Program-made: the position numbers and the translations under genes
Source of the DNA: Aliiroseovarius marinus
Lineage (GTDB): Bacteria > Pseudomonadota > Alphaproteobacteria > Rhodobacterales > Rhodobacteraceae
DNA length: 64,000 bases
Assembly: GCF_004360145.1 (NCBI RefSeq)
Contig: NZ_ML178712.1
Location: 124,001-188,000 of the forward strand
Direction: 5' to 3'
The notes under the pieces: generated by a model
The model's database searches: none
Told to the model about the DNA's origin: nothing
What the model saw: only the letters and a program-made list of their open reading frames with translations
Shown here: piece after piece, positions 30,610 through 38,239 of the stretch
Position numbering within the stretch: position 1 is the stretch's first letter
Layout of the letters: every line of letters begins with the position of its first letter

Positions 30610-32655
30610 TTACAGGTCTTTCACCAAGCGAAGGGCGTCATAGATGGCAGCATGCGTATTGCGTGCCGACACCGCGTCGCCAATGCGGAACAACTGGAAT
30701 TGCCCGTCTGGATTGGTGTTGATGGTTTGCGGACGGCCCTCGATCAGCGCGTTGTGGTCCATTTCACCCCGGTTGGATGAGAGCTCTTTCAGGTCGAAAT
30801 ACAGCTCATCCATCGGCATGGTGCCATAGTTCACCACCACCTGATCGTAAGTGGCTTCGCGGGTGAACTCGGAATAATCCGTCCCCAGCGTGACCGTCAG
30901 GCGATTGCCGTCGCGCGCGATATCCTTCAGGCGTTCGGTTACGGTGAACCGCACGCCCTTGGGCTGCAGCGAGCGCATATAGGGCACTAGGTTCATGGCC
31001 ATGATGTCCGGGGCGAACATGCGATCGGGGGTCATCACCTCGACATTCGCGCCAGCTTCGGCAGCGATCTCGGCCGCTTGCAACGCCGGATGGTCGCCGC
31101 TTTCGTCATAGATCAGCACATCGCCTGCACATTTCACATCCCCCGCAATCACATCCCAGGCACTGACGGCCAGATCCTGTTCGCCTTTGGTTTCGAACAG
31201 TTCAAGGTTCGGCAGACCGCCGGTGGCAACGATCACCACGTCGGGGTTCAAAGCGGTCACGTCATCGGCCTCGGCCCATGTGTTGAAATGGAACGTCACG
31301 TCCCGCGCCGCACATTGCGCCATACGCCAGTCGATGATGCCGATCATCTCGCGCCGCCGCGGAGTTTGCGCGGTCAGGCGCACCTGTCCACCGGGATCGG
31401 GCTGTGCTTCAAAGACGGTCACGTCATGGCCACGCTCGGCAGCCACACGGGCCGCTTCAAGCCCCGCAGGCCCAGCGCCCACGACCACAACCTTGCGCGG
31501 GGTCTCTGCAGCGGCAATCTCGTGCGGCATGGTCAACTCACGCCCGGTGGCGGCGTTATGGACGCACAGCGCATCCCCCGCCTGATAAATCCGGTCGAGA
31601 CAGTAGGTCGCGCCAACACAGGGGCGAATATCTTCTTCCCGCCCTTCGATGATTTTCTTCACGATATGCGGATCGGCCATATGCGCGCGCGTCATGCCAA
31701 CCATGTCCAACTGCCCAGTGGACACCGCATGACGCGCGGTCGCGACATCTGGAATACGAGCGGCATGGAAGGTGGGCATCCCAACCTCTTTGCGGACCCG
31801 CCCCGCGAAATCCAAATGCGGAGACGCAGGCGCACCCTGAATAGGGATCATATCCGTCATCGCAGGATCCGTATGAATGCGGCCCCGGTTGATGTTCAGA
31901 TAATCCACATGCCCGCAATCGCGCAGCATCCGGGCAATTTCCAGCCCCATTTCAGGATCAATCCCGCCGGTTTCAACTTCGTCCGGCGCAAAGCGAACGC
32001 CCACGATGAACTCACGCCCCACACGGTCGCGCACGGCTTCAATGATATCCATCGTTAGTTTCATCCGCCCAGCAAGGTCGCCGCCATAGGGGCCGTCCAG
32101 CCGGTTGGTCAGAGGCGAAATGAACTGGTCCAGCAAATGCCCGTGGGTCATCACCTCGACCCCGTCCATGCCGCCCTCTTTCATCCGCTCGGCCGCGTCC
32201 GCGAAGTCCGAGATGATCCGCGAGATGTCCCAATCCTCGGCCATTTTCGGAAAGGCGCGGTGGGCAGGTTCGCGGTGGGGGGTCGAGCACACTGGCGGCA
32301 ACCAATCGCCCTTGTTCCAGCCCGTGCGCCGCCCCAGATGGGTCAGCTGGATCATGCAGGCCGCACCATGTTCGTGCACCGCGTCCGTCAGGTTCCTGAT
32401 CCACGGCACAACCTCGTCCTTGTAGGCGAGGATGTTGTTGAACACAGGCGGGCTGTCCTTGGACACCGCCGCCGAGCCTGCCGTCATGGTCATCGCCACA
32501 CCCGCCTTGGCGCGCTCGGCATGATAGGCGGCATAGCGCGCCTTTGGCATCCCATCCTCGGGATAGGCGGGCTCGTGACTGGTGGTCATGATCCGGTTTC
32601 TCAGGGTCAGATGCCCCAGTTGATACGGCTGCAAAAGTGGATCGTTTGACATCAT
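30610..32655 (-). CDS. TMADH/DgcA-type NADH:flavin oxidoreductase
   Basis: A 681-residue flavoprotein of the old-yellow-enzyme/trimethylamine-dehydrogenase class, which oxidatively removes methyl or related groups from amines or reduces enoates. The N-terminal FMN TIM barrel (LGHLTLRNRIMTTSHEPAYPEDGMP; GRRTGWNKGDWLPP) is followed by a [4Fe-4S] segment (RPCVGATYCL...ALCVHNAATGRE). A C-terminal NAD(P)/FAD region follows, with KVVVVGAGPAGLEAARVAAERGHDVTVFE. Relatives include dimethylglycine (DgcA) and N-methylproline demethylases. The ATG at 32655 has GAGGAAG upstream and lies 7 bases after the MttB-like gene. A longer in-frame reading to 32943 is rejected. Substrate unknown. Confidence 0.88.
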   Translation of the reverse strand: MMSNDPLLQPYQLGHLTLRNRIMTTSHEPAYPEDGMPKARYAAYHAERAKAGVAMTMTAGSAAVSKDSPPVFNNILAYKDEVVPWIRNLTDAVHEHGAACMIQLTHLGRRTGWNKGDWLPPVCSTPHREPAHRAFPKMAEDWDISRIISDFADAAERMKEGGMDGVEVMTHGHLLDQFISPLTNRLDGPYGGDLAGRMKLTMDIIEAVRDRVGREFIVGVRFAPDEVETGGIDPEMGLEIARMLRDCGHVDYLNINRGRIHTDPAMTDMIPIQGAPASPHLDFAGRVRKEVGMPTFHAARIPDVATARHAVSTGQLDMVGMTRAHMADPHIVKKIIEGREEDIRPCVGATYCLDRIYQAGDALCVHNAATGRELTMPHEIAAAETPRKVVVVGAGPAGLEAARVAAERGHDVTVFEAQPDPGGQVRLTAQTPRRREMIGIIDWRMAQCAARDVTFHFNTWAEADDVTALNPDVVIVATGGLPNLELFETKGEQDLAVSAWDVIAGDVKCAGDVLIYDESGDHPALQAAEIAAEAGANVEVMTPDRMFAPDIMAMNLVPYMRSLQPKGVRFTVTERLKDIARDGNRLTVTLGTDYSEFTREATYDQVVVNYGTMPMDELYFDLKELSSNRGEMDHNALIEGRPQTINTNPDGQFQLFRIGDAVSARNTHAAIYDALRLVKDL

Positions 32656-32662
32656 CTTCCTC

Positions 32663-34222
32663 TTAGTACCAAGCGTCTTCCATCGAGGCTTTCTTGCGCG
32701 CGATAAAGTCCTGCAAAGCCTCGTCTGTGGCTTCATCAATCGCCGGCGCCTCATAAGCCGCCAACTGCGCTTTCCAACGCTGGTTAGCGCGGGTCGCCAT
32801 GTCGATCTCGCCCTGCTCGTCCCATGTCTCCCACGGCTGGTTGTCGTCCAGCGCGCTGTCGTAATAGGCCGTCTTATAGTGGCGCATCGTGTGTGCGGTC
32901 GAAAACAGGTGCTCGCCCGGCCCTTGTTCGGCCAAGGCATCAAAGCCCAGCGTATCCTCGTTCACCACAACCCCATCGTAATAAGAATGCAGCGCGCCAC
33001 AGAGGTCCAGATCCAGCATGAATTTCTCGTAGGACATGGACAGAAGCCCATCGAGGAACCCGGCCGAGTGCAAAAGGAAGTTCGCGCCACACTGCACCGC
33101 CGACATCATCGACATCATCGCCTGCTGCATTGCCTGCGCATCCGGCAGTTTCGAGGTCGAGAAGTTCCCCGCACAGCGCAGGGGCAGGTTCAGGCGGCGT
33201 GCCAGCTGGCCATAGACCAGACTGCCCACCGCAGGTTCTGCCGTGCCGAATGTGGGCGAGCCCGAGCGCAGCGACATCGAGCTGAGGAAGCTCGCCAGCA
33301 CCACCGGCGCGCCCGGACGTTCCAGCTGCGCCACCGCGCAGGACACCATGCTTTCCGCCAGACATTGCGCGATGGACCCCGCCATCGTCAGGGGTGACAC
33401 CGCGCCACCCAGTAGGAACGGTAGGTGAATCGATCCCTGCCCCGCGCGGGCGTATTCGCGAATGCCCTGCGTGGTGATCCCATCCAGCACCAAAGGGCTG
33501 GTGGTGTTGAAGTTGCCCATGATGACGCAGTTTTGATCGACGAATTCCGCGCCGAACAACACGCGGCACATCTCGACACTGTCAGCGGCACGTTCGGGTG
33601 CTGTGATCGAGCCTAGGAAGGGCCGGTCGGAATAGCGCATATGGGCGTAGACCATGTCCAGATGGCGCTTGTTTACCGGCACATCCGTGGGTTCGCACAC
33701 GGTGCCGCCGGAATGGTGCAGCCACGGGCTGGCCTGTCCCAGCTTCACGAAGTTCTGGAAGTCCTCAAGCGTGCCATAGCGGCGACCCTTGTCCAGATCC
33801 ATCACGAAGGGGCTACCATAGGACGGCGCGAAGACCACATTGTCGCCGCCGATCTGAACATTGTTGGCCGGGTTGCGGGCGTGCTGTGTGAAGACGCCCG
33901 GCGCCGTCTTCAGGATCTCACGGATCATGCCCGGCGCGAACTTGATGTTCCAGCGGGTATCGTCAAGCTGCGTGACCTCGCCACCTGCCTTACGGAACAT
34001 CTCGACGGTCTCGGGATCATCGCGAAACTCGATGCCGATCTCGGCCATGATGCGGTCGGCGGTCGCCTCGATCTGGCTCAGCGCCTCTTCCCCCAGAATG
34101 TCATAGGTGGGGATGCCGCGCTTGATATAGGGCCGCTCCAGATGCGGGTTCTGCCCCGGCGCACCATCACGTGCCTGCCGCTTGCCACGGCTGCGCCGCC
34201 GTCCTGTGCTTAGCTCGCCCAT
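32663..34222 (-). CDS. MttB-superfamily methyltransferase without pyrrolysine
   Basis: A 519-residue member of the trimethylamine methyltransferase (MttB/MtgB) superfamily, which moves methyl groups from quaternary or tertiary amines to a corrinoid protein. Family blocks are IEFRDDPETVEMFRKAGGEV, FAPSYGSPFVMD, and the barrel segments FNTTSPLVLDGI and PFLLGGAVSPLTMAGSIAQ. The frame has no internal TAG, so it is the non-pyrrolysine type typified by glycine-betaine methyltransferase. The start at 34222 is chosen because AAGGAGG lies 6 bases upstream. No corrinoid protein, methyl acceptor or activase gene lies in the window. Transcribed with the flavin oxidoreductase and opposite to the TetR gene. 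Confidence 0.87.
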   Translation of the reverse strand: MGELSTGRRRSRGKRQARDGAPGQNPHLERPYIKRGIPTYDILGEEALSQIEATADRIMAEIGIEFRDDPETVEMFRKAGGEVTQLDDTRWNIKFAPGMIREILKTAPGVFTQHARNPANNVQIGGDNVVFAPSYGSPFVMDLDKGRRYGTLEDFQNFVKLGQASPWLHHSGGTVCEPTDVPVNKRHLDMVYAHMRYSDRPFLGSITAPERAADSVEMCRVLFGAEFVDQNCVIMGNFNTTSPLVLDGITTQGIREYARAGQGSIHLPFLLGGAVSPLTMAGSIAQCLAESMVSCAVAQLERPGAPVVLASFLSSMSLRSGSPTFGTAEPAVGSLVYGQLARRLNLPLRCAGNFSTSKLPDAQAMQQAMMSMMSAVQCGANFLLHSAGFLDGLLSMSYEKFMLDLDLCGALHSYYDGVVVNEDTLGFDALAEQGPGEHLFSTAHTMRHYKTAYYDSALDDNQPWETWDEQGEIDMATRANQRWKAQLAAYEAPAIDEATDEALQDFIARKKASMEDAWY

Positions 34223-34251
34223 CACATCCTCCTTCGTCATGAGTCGCATAA

Positions 34252-34267
34252 TTGACATAAGTGGCAA
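34252..34267. promoter_or_regulatory. Operator 1 (degenerate palindrome) in the tetR-mttB spacer
   Basis: TTGACATAAGTGGCAA matches the perfect operator at 34273-34288 at 13 of 16 positions. The centres are 21 bases apart, two helical turns, which suits cooperative binding of two TetR dimers on one DNA face. Confidence 0.6.
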
Positions 34268-34272
34268 CTGAT

Positions 34273-34288
34273 TTGACACACGTGTCAA
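34273..34288. promoter_or_regulatory. Operator 2 (perfect palindrome) in the tetR-mttB spacer
   Basis: TTGACAC-AC-GTGTCAA is an exact 7-2-7 inverted repeat of the length usual for TetR-family operators. It overlaps the predicted -35 of the tetR promoter and lies in the divergent promoter region, so it probably mediates autoregulation and control of the methyltransferase operon. Confidence 0.7.
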
Positions 34289-34308: not shown

Positions 34309-34926
34309 ATGGCTAAAAACGACATCCCCCGCCCCCGCGCTTCCGAAACCATGTGGCTTGATGCAGCGCTTGAACTTCTGGTCACGGCTGGAGTGGACGG
34401 CGTGAAGATCCTGCCGCTGGCCAAACGGCTGGGCCTGACACGCACCGGCTTCTACCACCACTTCCGCGACCGCGAGGCGTTGCTGGACGCCATGATCAAG
34501 CGGTGGGAGGACAAGAACACCGGCAATCTGGTCGCCCAATGCGCGCTTTATGCCGAGACGATCTGCGAGGCGATGTTCAATCTTCAGGATTGCTGGTTCC
34601 AAAAAGATCTGTTCGACGCACAGCTTGACCGCGCCATCCGGAACTGGGCCGACCATGATGCGGACCTGAAGCAACGGGTCGACGCCGCCGACGCCCAGCG
34701 CAAGTCCGCCATCAAGTCCATGTTTGAACGCTACGGCTTTACACCCGCGGATGCCGAGGTCCGGACCATGACCATCCTTTATACGCAGGTCGGCTATATC
34801 GCGATGGAGATCAAAGAGGACCCCACAGGCCGGATCGACCGCGTCCCCCGCTATGTCGAGCTGTTCACCGGCCAAACCCCGACCGACAGCGAGATCCGGC
34901 GTTTTCGCGCCCGGAACGGATATTGA
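34309..34926 (+). CDS. TetR-family transcriptional regulator
   Basis: A 205-residue repressor-type regulator. The N-terminal helix-turn-helix is clear (DAALELLVTAGVDGVKILPLAKRLGLTRTGFYHHFRDREALLDAMIKRW, residues about 17-64). The C-terminal ligand-binding half (MFNLQDCWFQKDLFDAQLDRAIRNWADHDADLKQRV) is TetR_C-like. It lies between the divergent methyltransferase/flavin-oxidoreductase operon and the co-directional reductive-dehalogenase-like gene. Two palindromic operators overlap its own promoter, so it likely controls the whole locus. No Shine-Dalgarno sequence is seen, consistent with leaderless translation. The ligand is unknown, presumably the substrate of the neighbouring enzymes. Confidence 0.9.
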   Translation: MAKNDIPRPRASETMWLDAALELLVTAGVDGVKILPLAKRLGLTRTGFYHHFRDREALLDAMIKRWEDKNTGNLVAQCALYAETICEAMFNLQDCWFQKDLFDAQLDRAIRNWADHDADLKQRVDAADAQRKSAIKSMFERYGFTPADAEVRTMTILYTQVGYIAMEIKEDPTGRIDRVPRYVELFTGQTPTDSEIRRFRARNGY

Positions 34927-35001
34927 ATCCAATTTTTCCCTAGCGTCTGTTTTCCATCCATGCTTTGGGTAGTCTAACACCTGAAAGACCTGACCGGACC
35001 G

Positions 35002-35018
35002 AAGGCAGCATCTGCCTT
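35002..35018 (+). promoter_or_regulatory. Palindrome upstream of the dehalogenase-like gene
   Basis: AAGGCAG-CAT-CTGCCTT is a perfect 7-bp dyad, 23 bases before the ATG at 35042 and 75 bases after the tetR stop. It differs from the tetR operators. It could be a weak terminator for tetR (no T-run follows), an operator for another regulator, or a leader hairpin. Confidence 0.4.
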
Positions 35019-35041
35019 TCCCGGCAGAATGGACGACCGAC

Positions 35042-38000
35042 ATGCGCTTGTTTTCGACCCGCAATCGGCCCGTGGATCTGGGCCCTTACCCGCTTGAACG
35101 CCTACGCCGTTGCGATACGGCACCTGGGTTAGATCAGCTTGCCCCCGATCCACATCTGTCCTTTGAACGACCCGAACGGCCCGAAAGCATCGTCAACGCG
35201 ATGGCCCCCTATCAGGCAGCCCTGGACGCGATCCGGGATGGCGAGGTCAACCGGACGCGCTCGTCTATCCCTGACGATCTGGATGAACGCGCACGACATC
35301 TGAAAGCCTTTGGCTATTTCGCAGATGCCTCGATGGTTGGCATCACGCGGCTGGACGCGGACGCGCTGCGCGACACGCCCGCCGAGAACCCCGGCATTCA
35401 GGACCTCGTCACCGCGTTAGAAACGCGCGAGGTTCGGACGCTGGCCGCTGGCATCGACACGTTGATGGCCGAGCTGAAGGAAAGCCTGTCTGCTGGCATC
35501 CGCCCCGTGTCAGGCCACACCCACGCGATTGTCTTCCTCTATGAACACCACCGCGCGCCCCGTGCGGACGAGCCGGGGGCGGAGTGGATCATGGACGCGC
35601 AGGACCACCGCGCCTGCCTTCTGTCCTCGGAAACCGCGATCGTCATCGCGAATTATCTGCGGCTTCTGGGGTATGGCGCGAAGGCCCATACCGGGGCGGC
35701 CAGCGATGTCTGGATGTCGCGGCTTGCGGTGCAGGCCGGGCTGGCATGGGCAACGCCCAAGGGTCCGCGCGCCCCGTGGCTAGGTGACCAGTTCGGCCTC
35801 GCCGTTGTCACTACCGATCTTGAGGTTGCCCCCGACCGCCCCCTTGCCCCCGAAGCAGAACAGACAAGCCTGACCGGGCTACGCTGGACGCTGGGCGTGG
35901 ACAGTGCGAAATCCGGCCTGAACCGCGATCCCTATGCGCGGCGCGACTATGCCCAAGGCCCGCTGCCCTTCGAGCGCTTAAAGCGTGTCGACCAGCCGAC
36001 CTCCTATATCGACGAAGAAAACGTCGCCCGCGTGCCGAAACGATCCGACATGTTCGCCCGCGCGCAGTTTGGCGATATGGGCAAGCATCTGCACGAAAGC
36101 TCCTCTGGCGGGATGTATGTGCGCAAGGCTGCGCCCAGCTATGCCCAACGTCGCGCGCTTGGGGTATTCACACCACTGCAAGACGGCCCTGTGACCGAGG
36201 GCACGCGCCCGACGGATGCGGAAAAGAACGCTGCCGCGCTGCGTGCCGCAAGCTATTTCCTTGGGATCGACGCGGCGGGCACCAGCCGCTGCCCCGACTG
36301 GGTCTGGTACAGCCACGACGCGACGGGGGCCGAGATCGTGCCGCCCCATCACAACGCGATTTCCATGATTGTGGATCAGGGCTTTGAAACGATGGAGGGC
36401 GCGTCCGGCGACGACTGGATCGCGGTCAGCCAATCCATGCGCGCCTATCTGCGGTTTTCCTTGATCGGCGGGGTGATCGCGCAGCAGATCCGCAACCTCG
36501 GCTACTCGGCCAAGGCGCACACGGTGATGGACGGCACGGTGCTGCAACCGCCGCTTCTGCTGCTGGCCGGGTTGGGCGAGATCAGCCGGATTGGCGAGGT
36601 TATTCTGCACCCGCTGCTTGGCCCGCGTCTGAAATCCGGCGCGGTGACAACGGACATGCCGCTGGCCCATGATAGGCCGATTGATTTCGGCCTGCAGCGC
36701 TTCTGCGAAAGCTGCAATAAATGCGCGCGGGAGTGTCCCTCGGGCGCGATCACCGCCGGGCCGAAGAAGATGTTCAACGGCTATGAGATTTGGAAATCCG
36801 ACAGCCAGAAATGCACCACCTACCGCGTGACCCAGCCGGGCGGCGCGATGTGTGGACGTTGCATGAAGACATGCCCGTGGAACCTTGAGGGGCTGTTTGC
36901 CCAGACGCCGTTCCGCTGGGCGGCCTCGAACCTGCCGGGTGCGGCGCCTGTCTTGGCGAAGCTCGACGATGCCGTCGGCAATGGCGGTCTGAACGAGGTC
37001 AAGAAATGGTGGTGGGATTTGGAGCTTGGCGAGGATGGTGGATACCACGCCCCCAAGCAGCCCACGAACCGCCGCGACCTTCAGCGCGAGATTGATCTGA
37101 AGCCCGAGGATCAGACGCTTGCGACCTACCCCGCGCCGCTGGCCCCGCCACCCTATCCCTATCCGTTCCCGATGGATCGCGAAGCGGGGATTGCGGCATA
37201 TGAGGCGATGATCTCGGCCAAGGAGTACCGCGAGCGGAAAGCGCGGGGGGACCTGTCGATGGTCCACCGCTATGTGGTGCCGGATGACAGCCCGGTCCTG
37301 CAGCTGACCCTGTCGAAGGTCGAGCAGATGACGCCCGGCGTTACGAAATACGAGCTATCCACGCTGGACGGGTCCGAGCTGCCCGCTTGGACCGCCGGGG
37401 CGCATCTGGATGTGCTCGTCTCGCCCGATTTTCTGCGGCAGTATTCGCTGTCTGGTGATCCCGCAGACCGCAGCCGCTATCAGATCGGTGTGCTGCGCGA
37501 AGAGGATGGGCGCGGCGGGTCGGCCTTGCTGCATCGGATCTTCACCGAGGGGCGGAAGGTCTTCGTCTCGAAACCCATCAACCATTTCGAACTGGTCGAG
37601 GATGCGCCCAAGACCTTCCTGATGGGCGGTGGGATCGGCATCACCCCGATGATCGCTTTCGCGCACCGCCTGCACGCGCTTGGCGCCGATTTCGCACTGC
37701 ACTACTCGGCCAGCAGCCGGAAGGATGCGGGGTATCTAGACGATCTGGCGGCGATGCCGTGGGCGGATAAGGTGCATCTGCATTTCTCGGACGAAGGCTC
37801 GCGCGCGGATTTCGATGCGGTGTTCGCAGACGCCCCCGACGGTGCCCATATCTACGCCTGTGGTGCGGATCGCTACATGGATGCGGTGATGCAGGCGGCG
37901 GAGCGCCAAGGCATCCCCGAGGACGCGCGGCATCTGGAATATTTCAGCGTGCCCGAGCAGCCGGATTATGAAAACCACCCCTTCACCCTGCGCCTGAAAG

Positions 38001-38239
38001 ATGGTCGCAGGATCGCGGTCTCGGAAGATCAGACTGCGGCGGATGCGTTGAACGCGGCGGGGTTCCATGTGGACGTCAAATGCTCGGACGGGATTTGCGG
38101 CGTGTGTAAATGTGGTGTGCTGTCGGGCGATGTTGAACACCGCGACTTCGTCCTCTCGAACGCCCAGCGCGAGGGCGCGATGATCCTGTGCCAAAGCCGG
38201 GCGAAAGACGCGGACGGAGAGATTGCGCTGGATTTGTGA
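35042..38239 (+). CDS. Self-sufficient reductive-dehalogenase-like protein fused to an FMN/NAD/[2Fe-2S] reductase
   Basis: A 1065-residue cytosolic multidomain enzyme (no Tat or Sec signal). Residues about 80-280 are a degenerate copy of the cobalamin domain (LLGYGAKAHT...GLAVVTTDLEVAPDRPL). Residues about 390-550 are the RdhA-type cobalamin domain (NLGYSAKAHT...AGLGEISRIGE...GAVTTDMPLAHDRPI). Two ferredoxin-like [4Fe-4S] motifs follow (Cys555/558/561/565; Cys591/604/607/611). From about 740 there is a phthalate-dioxygenase-reductase-type module: FMN site RQYSL (about 799), NAD site GGGIGITP (about 862-869) and a plant-type [2Fe-2S] with Cys1014/1019/1022/1050. BhbA and NpRdhA have this architecture and reductively remove halogens from phenols. 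Lys491 and Arg553 are plausible equivalents of NpRdhA Lys488/Arg552 (from memory). The true substrate is not known. Confidence 0.88.
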   Translation: MRLFSTRNRPVDLGPYPLERLRRCDTAPGLDQLAPDPHLSFERPERPESIVNAMAPYQAALDAIRDGEVNRTRSSIPDDLDERARHLKAFGYFADASMVGITRLDADALRDTPAENPGIQDLVTALETREVRTLAAGIDTLMAELKESLSAGIRPVSGHTHAIVFLYEHHRAPRADEPGAEWIMDAQDHRACLLSSETAIVIANYLRLLGYGAKAHTGAASDVWMSRLAVQAGLAWATPKGPRAPWLGDQFGLAVVTTDLEVAPDRPLAPEAEQTSLTGLRWTLGVDSAKSGLNRDPYARRDYAQGPLPFERLKRVDQPTSYIDEENVARVPKRSDMFARAQFGDMGKHLHESSSGGMYVRKAAPSYAQRRALGVFTPLQDGPVTEGTRPTDAEKNAAALRAASYFLGIDAAGTSRCPDWVWYSHDATGAEIVPPHHNAISMIVDQGFETMEGASGDDWIAVSQSMRAYLRFSLIGGVIAQQIRNLGYSAKAHTVMDGTVLQPPLLLLAGLGEISRIGEVILHPLLGPRLKSGAVTTDMPLAHDRPIDFGLQRFCESCNKCARECPSGAITAGPKKMFNGYEIWKSDSQKCTTYRVTQPGGAMCGRCMKTCPWNLEGLFAQTPFRWAASNLPGAAPVLAKLDDAVGNGGLNEVKKWWWDLELGEDGGYHAPKQPTNRRDLQREIDLKPEDQTLATYPAPLAPPPYPYPFPMDREAGIAAYEAMISAKEYRERKARGDLSMVHRYVVPDDSPVLQLTLSKVEQMTPGVTKYELSTLDGSELPAWTAGAHLDVLVSPDFLRQYSLSGDPADRSRYQIGVLREEDGRGGSALLHRIFTEGRKVFVSKPINHFELVEDAPKTFLMGGGIGITPMIAFAHRLHALGADFALHYSASSRKDAGYLDDLAAMPWADKVHLHFSDEGSRADFDAVFADAPDGAHIYACGADRYMDAVMQAAERQGIPEDARHLEYFSVPEQPDYENHPFTLRLKDGRRIAVSEDQTAADALNAAGFHVDVKCSDGICGVCKCGVLSGDVEHRDFVLSNAQREGAMILCQSRAKDADGEIALDL

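Follow-up and report, generated by a model that had tools for sequence, protein, structure and literature searches.

The window, a 64,000-nucleotide stretch of the Aliiroseovarius marinus genome, carries at 35042..38239 on the forward strand a single open frame, from ATG to stop, coding for a protein of 1065 amino acids (aa). An initial annotation had read this frame, with its internal repeat and cofactor modules, as a fused, cytosolic, NAD(P)H-driven enzyme of the reductive-dehalogenase type, and had proposed an alignment with the dehalogenases NpRdhA and BhbA and a phylogeny of the fused forms. Both alignments agreed with this reading. The N-terminal two thirds of the window protein matched NpRdhA (PDB 4ras) with an E-value of 1.6e-158 in two stretches, aa 1-108 and aa 158-728, and BhbA showed 49.1% identity over 100% of the length. 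The reductive dehalogenase profile TIGR02486 gave 204.4 bits, above its curated cut-off of 160.35, and the protein belongs to this family. The C-terminal third matched the phthalate dioxygenase reductase (PDOR) 2pia with an E-value of 4e-51, as well as the reductase part of self-sufficient P450s; the PDOR domain that marks self-sufficient catabolic RdhA proteins is present with its FMN/NAD and [2Fe-2S] parts. The start codon is probably right, because the alignment with the N-terminus of NpRdhA begins at residue 1. Inspection by eye of the first 45 residues, a stretch aligned with the beginning of NpRdhA, showed no RR signal of the twin-arginine translocation (Tat) type. The window protein is very probably a cytosolic, self-sufficient catabolic reductive dehalogenase.

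In NpRdhA, the hydroxyl group of the substrate is held by S422, K488 and R552 and the proton comes from Y426 (PMC7565698). These residues correspond, in a gapless stretch of the alignment, to S465, K531, R595 and Y469 of the window protein; loss of the catalytic Lys or Arg, which the initial annotation had named as a ground for dropping its proposal, was not seen, and the Tyr is also kept. The cofactor motifs that it had listed were all found: the cysteines of two [4Fe-4S] clusters (C555/558/561/565 and C591/604/607/611) lie after the cobalamin domain, and a CX4CX2CX27C motif (C1014/1019/1022/1050) corresponds to the plant-type [2Fe-2S] cluster. In a 15-row alignment including the window protein, the four catalytic residues and the eight [4Fe-4S] cysteines were kept in every row and the four [2Fe-2S] cysteines in all 10 fused rows. 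The catalytic Ser, Tyr, Lys and Arg were also invariant in a 29-row alignment (A3), and 87 of the 89 rows of a wider alignment agreed, the two exceptions (L062 and L071) being antisense frames taken in place of genes that proved intact when re-read. An insert region of the fused forms measured 55-56 residues in the 10 fused rows of the 15-row alignment, 0-15 in four of the five truncated rows and 60 in the remaining one (L151). One pocket position was variable. A419 of NpRdhA, which lines the pocket of the second halogen (PMC7565698), is replaced at position 462 by Val in 8 of the 10 fused rows, the window protein included, and by Ser in BhbA and Nitratireductor OM-1, while the five truncated rows had Gly (3), Ala (1) or Ser (1). 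The 89-row alignment, two rows of which are the antisense frames, had Val in 79 rows, Cys in 6, Leu in 3 and Thr in 1.

The internal repeat was then examined. The four repeat elements quoted by the initial annotation were all located, GYGAKAHT at aa 210 with GYSAKAHT at aa 487, and VVTTDLEVAPDRPL at aa 255 with AVTTDMPLAHDRPI at aa 534. Comparison of aa 75-300 with aa 394-560 gave 55.8 bits and 35% identity over 121 aa, and the Smith-Waterman score of 134 was higher than the score of any of 1000 shuffles (mean 30.9, sd 4.8, max 67). When the cobalamin core was used alone as the query, it matched both halves of NpRdhA. In the self-alignment, the core residues S465, Y469 and K531 align with D188, C192 and G252 of the N-terminal repeat, so that the repeat would lack such a catalytic site. 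These alignments show the N-terminal repeat to be a genuine duplicate of the cobalamin domain, although a degenerate one. The annotated view of it as a vestigial part without a cluster motif therefore stands, except that it does not lack cysteines altogether: it holds one, C192, outside any cluster motif. A vestigial cobalamin domain is described as a feature of the class, in which it mimics the dimer interface of the respiratory enzymes (PMC10463259).

In the proposed phylogeny, a tree of 53 rows, a single 30-row clade (support 95/99) gathered the fused forms, with BhbA and the window protein among them, and had NpRdhA and other truncated forms nearby. Within it, the window protein grouped with two other Aliiroseovarius rows (100/99), and BhbA formed a separate branch with its Nitratireductor relative (97/99). 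The tree is read as unrooted because the QueG outgroup was saturated, with a branch length of 10, and other long branches are also unsure. An AlphaFold2 model, built from the 29-row alignment, had a mean predicted local distance difference test (pLDDT) of 70.2 and a predicted TM-score (pTM) of 0.68; its first matches were the crystal structures of NpRdhA (TMt 0.82-0.84), followed by self-sufficient P450s and PDOR-type reductases. A group of short RdhA-related proteins (frames of 392-449 aa; L149, L154, L155, L156, L157 and L158) formed a branch of its own; the six genomes that carry it belong to the same family and all have a fused form as well. A 2.4 Mb alphaproteobacterial genome, G488, had five reductive dehalogenase matches (L151, L159 and L161 among its loci), three of them within about 6 kb on one contig (C11).

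The dehalogenase frame is intact and under purifying selection. Against four congeners, the ratio of nonsynonymous to synonymous substitution rates (dN/dS) was 0.051-0.071 overall, 0.012-0.049 in the catalytic part and 0.083-0.110 in the N-terminal part, with dS above 1 for the most distant congener. The genome carries a single copy, the second match (74 aa) being another ferredoxin-type domain. A dehalogenase match was found in 20 of the 21 Aliiroseovarius genomes searched, that is in A. marinus and 19 of its 20 congeners (none in G012); it lay in two adjacent pieces in G007 and covered the reductase third only in G010, a 56% complete assembly. At E 1e-60, 38 of 101 genomes were matched; besides G010, the match covered only the reductase in G059 and G093, and a truncated or partial RdhA in G053, G061 and G067. 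In a contig scan, the best 80 of 112 loci were 57-97% identical and came mostly from roseobacters, with some metagenome bins named otherwise. The gene is thus common in marine roseobacters and the enzyme ordinary for its clade, in which putative bhbA homologues were already described as widespread (PMC13101508).

Four known enzymes can be set beside the window protein. JtRdhA, from the marine Jhaorihella thermophila, uses NADPH to debrominate and deiodinate phenols, in air as well (PMC10463259), and by its published description has the same order of vestigial domain, cobalamin core, two [4Fe-4S] clusters and PDOR; the catalytic Tyr/Lys/Arg are the same, and its RdhA part holds an insert. BhbA (Comamonas sp. 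7D-2, plasmid pBHB) shares, besides 49% full-length identity, all the catalytic and cluster residues, but it adjoins protocatechuate 4,5-dioxygenase genes on a plasmid, has Ser for Val at position 462 and belongs to a separate branch. NpRdhA (Nitratireductor pacificus; PDB 4ras, 6zxu) shares about 40% identity over the RdhA part, the vestigial duplicate and the catalytic residues; it differs by having no insert, an Ala at the pocket position (PMC7565698) and no fused reductase (PMC10463259). The initial annotation had given BhbA and NpRdhA as enzymes of the same build, which is true of BhbA but not of NpRdhA, and BhbA and JtRdhA serve best as functional models. Ros_A3X954, from a Roseobacter, is described as a catabolic reductive dehalogenase that converts 2,6-dibromophenol (PMC13101508).

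By analogy with these relatives, from which we take the reaction, the use of NADPH, the activity in air and the role of the duplicate, NAD(P)H would reduce the FMN of the C-terminal module, and electrons would pass from FMN to the [2Fe-2S] domain, then to the two [4Fe-4S] clusters and finally to a base-off cobalamin in the core domain. S465, K531 and R595 would hold an ortho-halogenated phenol, whose halogen the resulting cob(I)alamin would attack, with Y469 donating the proton, while the N-terminal duplicate, devoid of a catalytic site, would most likely replace the dimer partner of the respiratory enzymes. Marine phenolics that carry bromine or iodine are the likely substrates, and the dehalogenated products would enter ordinary aromatic breakdown. 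The cobaltochelatase CobN is encoded in the genome (TIGR02257, 1622.5 bits for a cut-off of 822), which makes an own supply of B12 plausible. Several points weigh against this assignment. The structure model is only moderate, with a pLDDT below 50 at aa 564-622, in the cluster region; we infer the activity and the substrates from characterised relatives; and substrate preference may differ, given that the position of NpRdhA A419 holds Val (V462) in the window protein and Ser in BhbA. In addition, the best match to 4-hydroxybenzoate hydroxylase (PobA) in the A. marinus genome reached 50.5 bits for a cut-off of 538.7, so that the genome shows no downstream route by way of 4-hydroxybenzoate and PobA. 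The genome does contain an hmgA-maiA-fahA set for homogentisate ring cleavage (L175:6203-12854), with an FAD monooxygenase nearby; an entry to homogentisate through 4-hydroxyphenylpyruvate dioxygenase is not seen, as this enzyme had no match in the genome.

The features of the dehalogenase gene and of the region upstream are listed in Table 1.

Table 1. Features of the dehalogenase gene and its upstream region (window coordinates)
Feature	Position	Strand	Basis or remark
Vestigial duplicate of the cobalamin domain (aa 75-300)	35264..35941	+	Alignments; vestigial duplication published for the class
Insert of about 45 residues in fused forms (aa 109-157)	35366..35512	+	Alignment gap against NpRdhA
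Predicted functional cobalamin core domain (aa 394-548)	36221..36685	+	NpRdhA alignment; AlphaFold2 model match
Active-site stretch: V462 (NpRdhA A419), S465 (S422), Y469 (Y426)	36425..36448	+	Alignments; roles from PMC7565698
Catalytic Lys K531 (NpRdhA K488)	36632..36634	+	Alignments
Two [4Fe-4S] motifs, C555-C565 and C591-C611; R595 (NpRdhA R552) inside the second	36704..36874	+	
FMN/NAD(P) reductase module, PDOR type (aa 751-972)	37292..37957	+	2pia match; structure model
Plant-type [2Fe-2S] domain (aa 981-1065)	37982..38236	+	PF00111, 39.4 bits; Cys motif
115-base gap upstream of the dehalogenase	34927..35041	.	Coupled sulfatase-family gene of 9 congeners missing here
TetR gene	34309-34926	+	
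MttB-family gene, divergent from TetR	32663-34288	-	
Old yellow enzyme (OYE)-family gene	30610-32943	-	With TetR and MttB, a separate cassette outside the dehalogenase system

The MttB-family and OYE-family genes upstream had led the initial annotation to consider that the scaffold was recruited to another cobalamin reaction, such as a demethylation. We compared 13 congener regions (L022-L031 and L049-L051; tblastn, E 1e-10; two query frames, x_29768 and x_27150, are probably antisense). TetR, MttB and OYE were all present in nine of them and all absent in four, in which the dehalogenase stays, and no TetR or OYE match was found in 85 loci outside the genus (17 unnamed and 68 named, some duplicated, some short), where MttB-family paralogues of 32-35% identity occurred in five. 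This all-or-none pattern in the genus, with the lack of TetR and OYE matches in the outside loci, indicates a separate cassette, independent of the dehalogenase; as the residues that hold and protonate a halophenol are also kept, such a recruitment is highly improbable. The MttB-family protein of the window scored 232 bits for a trimethylamine methyltransferase cut-off of 525. An epoxyqueuosine-reductase-like protein or a respiratory dehalogenase, which are class III cobalamin enzymes as well (PMC10463259), is an alternative of negligible probability: the QueG profile TIGR00276 does match the window protein, but with 25 bits for a cut-off of 200, the genome encodes its own QueG elsewhere (435.7 bits), and a fused reductase is found together with an N-terminus in which no RR signal was seen by eye. 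An epoxyqueuosine-reductase identity, against which the initial annotation had cautioned, is not borne out by these scores.

The two other alternatives concern the role of the enzyme. Relatives lie on plasmids beside aromatic-degradation genes (BhbA and Nitratireductor OM-1), as expected of an enzyme recently acquired against man-made halogenated pollutants, but the presence of the gene in 20 of 21 Aliiroseovarius genomes, the histidine kinase gene found downstream, as in the window, in all 13 congener regions, the strong purifying selection and the separate position of the branch formed by BhbA and its Nitratireductor relative, with Ser and not Val at 462, make a recent acquisition very unlikely. 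A main role in halophenol detoxification instead of carbon use has a better, though still minority, chance of being correct. No conserved catabolic operon was found around the dehalogenase, and PobA (E 1e-80) occurs in only 3 of the 21 Aliiroseovarius genomes; on the other side, E. coli W can grow on a bromo-4-hydroxyphenylacetate with the help of JtRdhA (PMC10463259), and the A. marinus genome has the hmgA-maiA-fahA set. For a constant partner of the dehalogenase, immediate neighbours were scanned at 63 of 77 upstream and 57 of 77 downstream positions, leaving out near duplicates and some short frames; one of the 63 upstream neighbours (L063) comes from Aliiroseovarius itself. Any one Pfam family occurred in at most 7 of the 63 upstream and 3 of the 57 downstream neighbours. 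These counts are rough, because the plain longest-frame gene caller missed a coupled sulfatase in L056, L057 and L058, recovered by tblastn, and took antisense frames in L062 and L071. MarR-type regulators were the most frequent directly upstream (7 of 63; also L166:5458-5910 and L165:5512-5967), and a gene of the fumarylacetoacetate hydrolase family lay 35-67 bases upstream of the dehalogenase on the same strand in L067:7230-7928, L068, L069, L073 and L124, several of which are from Shimia.

A sulfatase-family gene was found coupled to the dehalogenase in congeners of A. marinus. In A. lamellibrachiae, the frame directly upstream (L061:6273-8000) belongs to the sulfatase family (PF00884, 151.7 bits), and the copy of L063 did not reach the curated cut-off of the NCBIfam models of PehA, arylsulfatase or choline sulfatase. 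By targeted tblastn, same-strand coupled copies, with matches that stop 4-24 bases short of the dehalogenase start, were found in L061/L030, L031, L063/L051, L056/L050, L058, L027 and L057. In 9 of the 20 dehalogenase-bearing Aliiroseovarius genomes (G001, G005, G007 in pieces, G008, G011, G013, G014, G016 and G019), a sulfatase-family gene lies 3-23 bases from the dehalogenase by whole-genome coordinates; the stop codon of the sulfatase and the start codon of the dehalogenase overlap as TGATG in L063, abut in L061 and are 2 bases apart in L056 and 1 base in L057. In G007 (C168:61-5030), the dehalogenase and the adjoining sulfatase each match in two pieces, by assembly error or decay. Nine of the 20 genomes, A. 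marinus included, carry a sulfatase relative, with 63-74% identity to the query, at a different location or on a different contig; G006 has a remnant at the dehalogenase and a 56% copy elsewhere, the fragments of G010 do not show the place of its sulfatase relative to the dehalogenase, G003 has a dehalogenase with no sulfatase match, and neither gene was matched in G012. The distal copy of A. marinus (G000:C1:379437-381059; L181:8444-10093) adjoins a ubiquinone-hydroxylase-type gene, with no recurrent neighbour among 20 regions. Outside the genus, a relative of 60-78% identity lay 2-8 kb upstream of the dehalogenase in 5 of the 68 named loci, four from Sulfitobacter, one of them reduced to a piece of 98 aa at the edge of its locus, and one from Ruegeria; relatives of only 27-29% in L047, L092 and L093 were left out of this count. 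The independent linkage events are therefore few, one in the genus, perhaps one in Sulfitobacter and one in Ruegeria.

The co-occurrence of the two genes was then examined outside the genus, within the family. A sulfatase match (E 1e-60) was present in 10 of 13 genomes with a fused RdhA against 4 of 26 without (p 0.0003; permutation within genome-size strata, p 0.001), G053, which has a truncated RdhA and a sulfatase, being excluded and G059, with a reductase match only, counted as without. As yardsticks in the same genomes, HmgA was also enriched (12 of 13 against 15 of 26, p 0.03), whereas PobA, in 11 of 13 against 17 of 26, was not clearly so (p 0.28). A replication stated in advance on a second sample went in the same direction but was weaker, with 11 of 13 against 5 of 11 (two-sided p 0.08), or 9 of 11 against 3 of 8 when counted by genus. 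Pooling the samples gave 21 of 26 carriers against 9 of 37 non-carriers (p 1e-5, kinship ignored and some genomes being close kin). In a phylum sample, 22 genomes outside the family had a sulfatase match, two of them with a catabolic RdhA (G309 and G356), so the sulfatase is not exclusive to dehalogenase carriers. The sulfatase motif usually takes the form C-X-P/A-X-R; that of L061, CGSSR, departs from it, and the distal copy of A. marinus has CGASR. The substrates of this sulfatase-family enzyme may be sulfate or phosphate esters.

Red algae contain sulfated bromophenols such as lanosol-4,7-disulfate (PMC9322897), and the coupling and co-occurrence of the two genes suggest sulfated halophenols as natural substrates. 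Desulfation as the first step would make chemical sense, because the dehalogenase would hold its substrate by the phenol hydroxyl. We tentatively propose, as a possibility short of an even chance, a two-enzyme route for the sulfated halophenols of seaweeds, in which the sulfatase-family hydrolase would free the phenol and the dehalogenase would then remove the ortho bromine; in A. marinus the product would take a path that bypasses PobA, perhaps by way of the homogentisate set. In an open-access library, no literature was found, apart from one unrelated record, that ties an arylsulfatase, or a sulfatase with bromophenol, to a reductive dehalogenase. The enzyme class itself is already known, and the coupled sulfatase-family gene is the new lead.

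The published assays of this class of enzymes used chosen bromo- and iodophenolics, and no constant catabolic partner of the gene was found here. Pocket position 462 offers a simple handle on the substrate range. If the two-enzyme route is true, the sulfate esters of algal bromophenols would be a concrete class of natural substrates and would link the bromophenols of red algae to bacterial bromine cycling.

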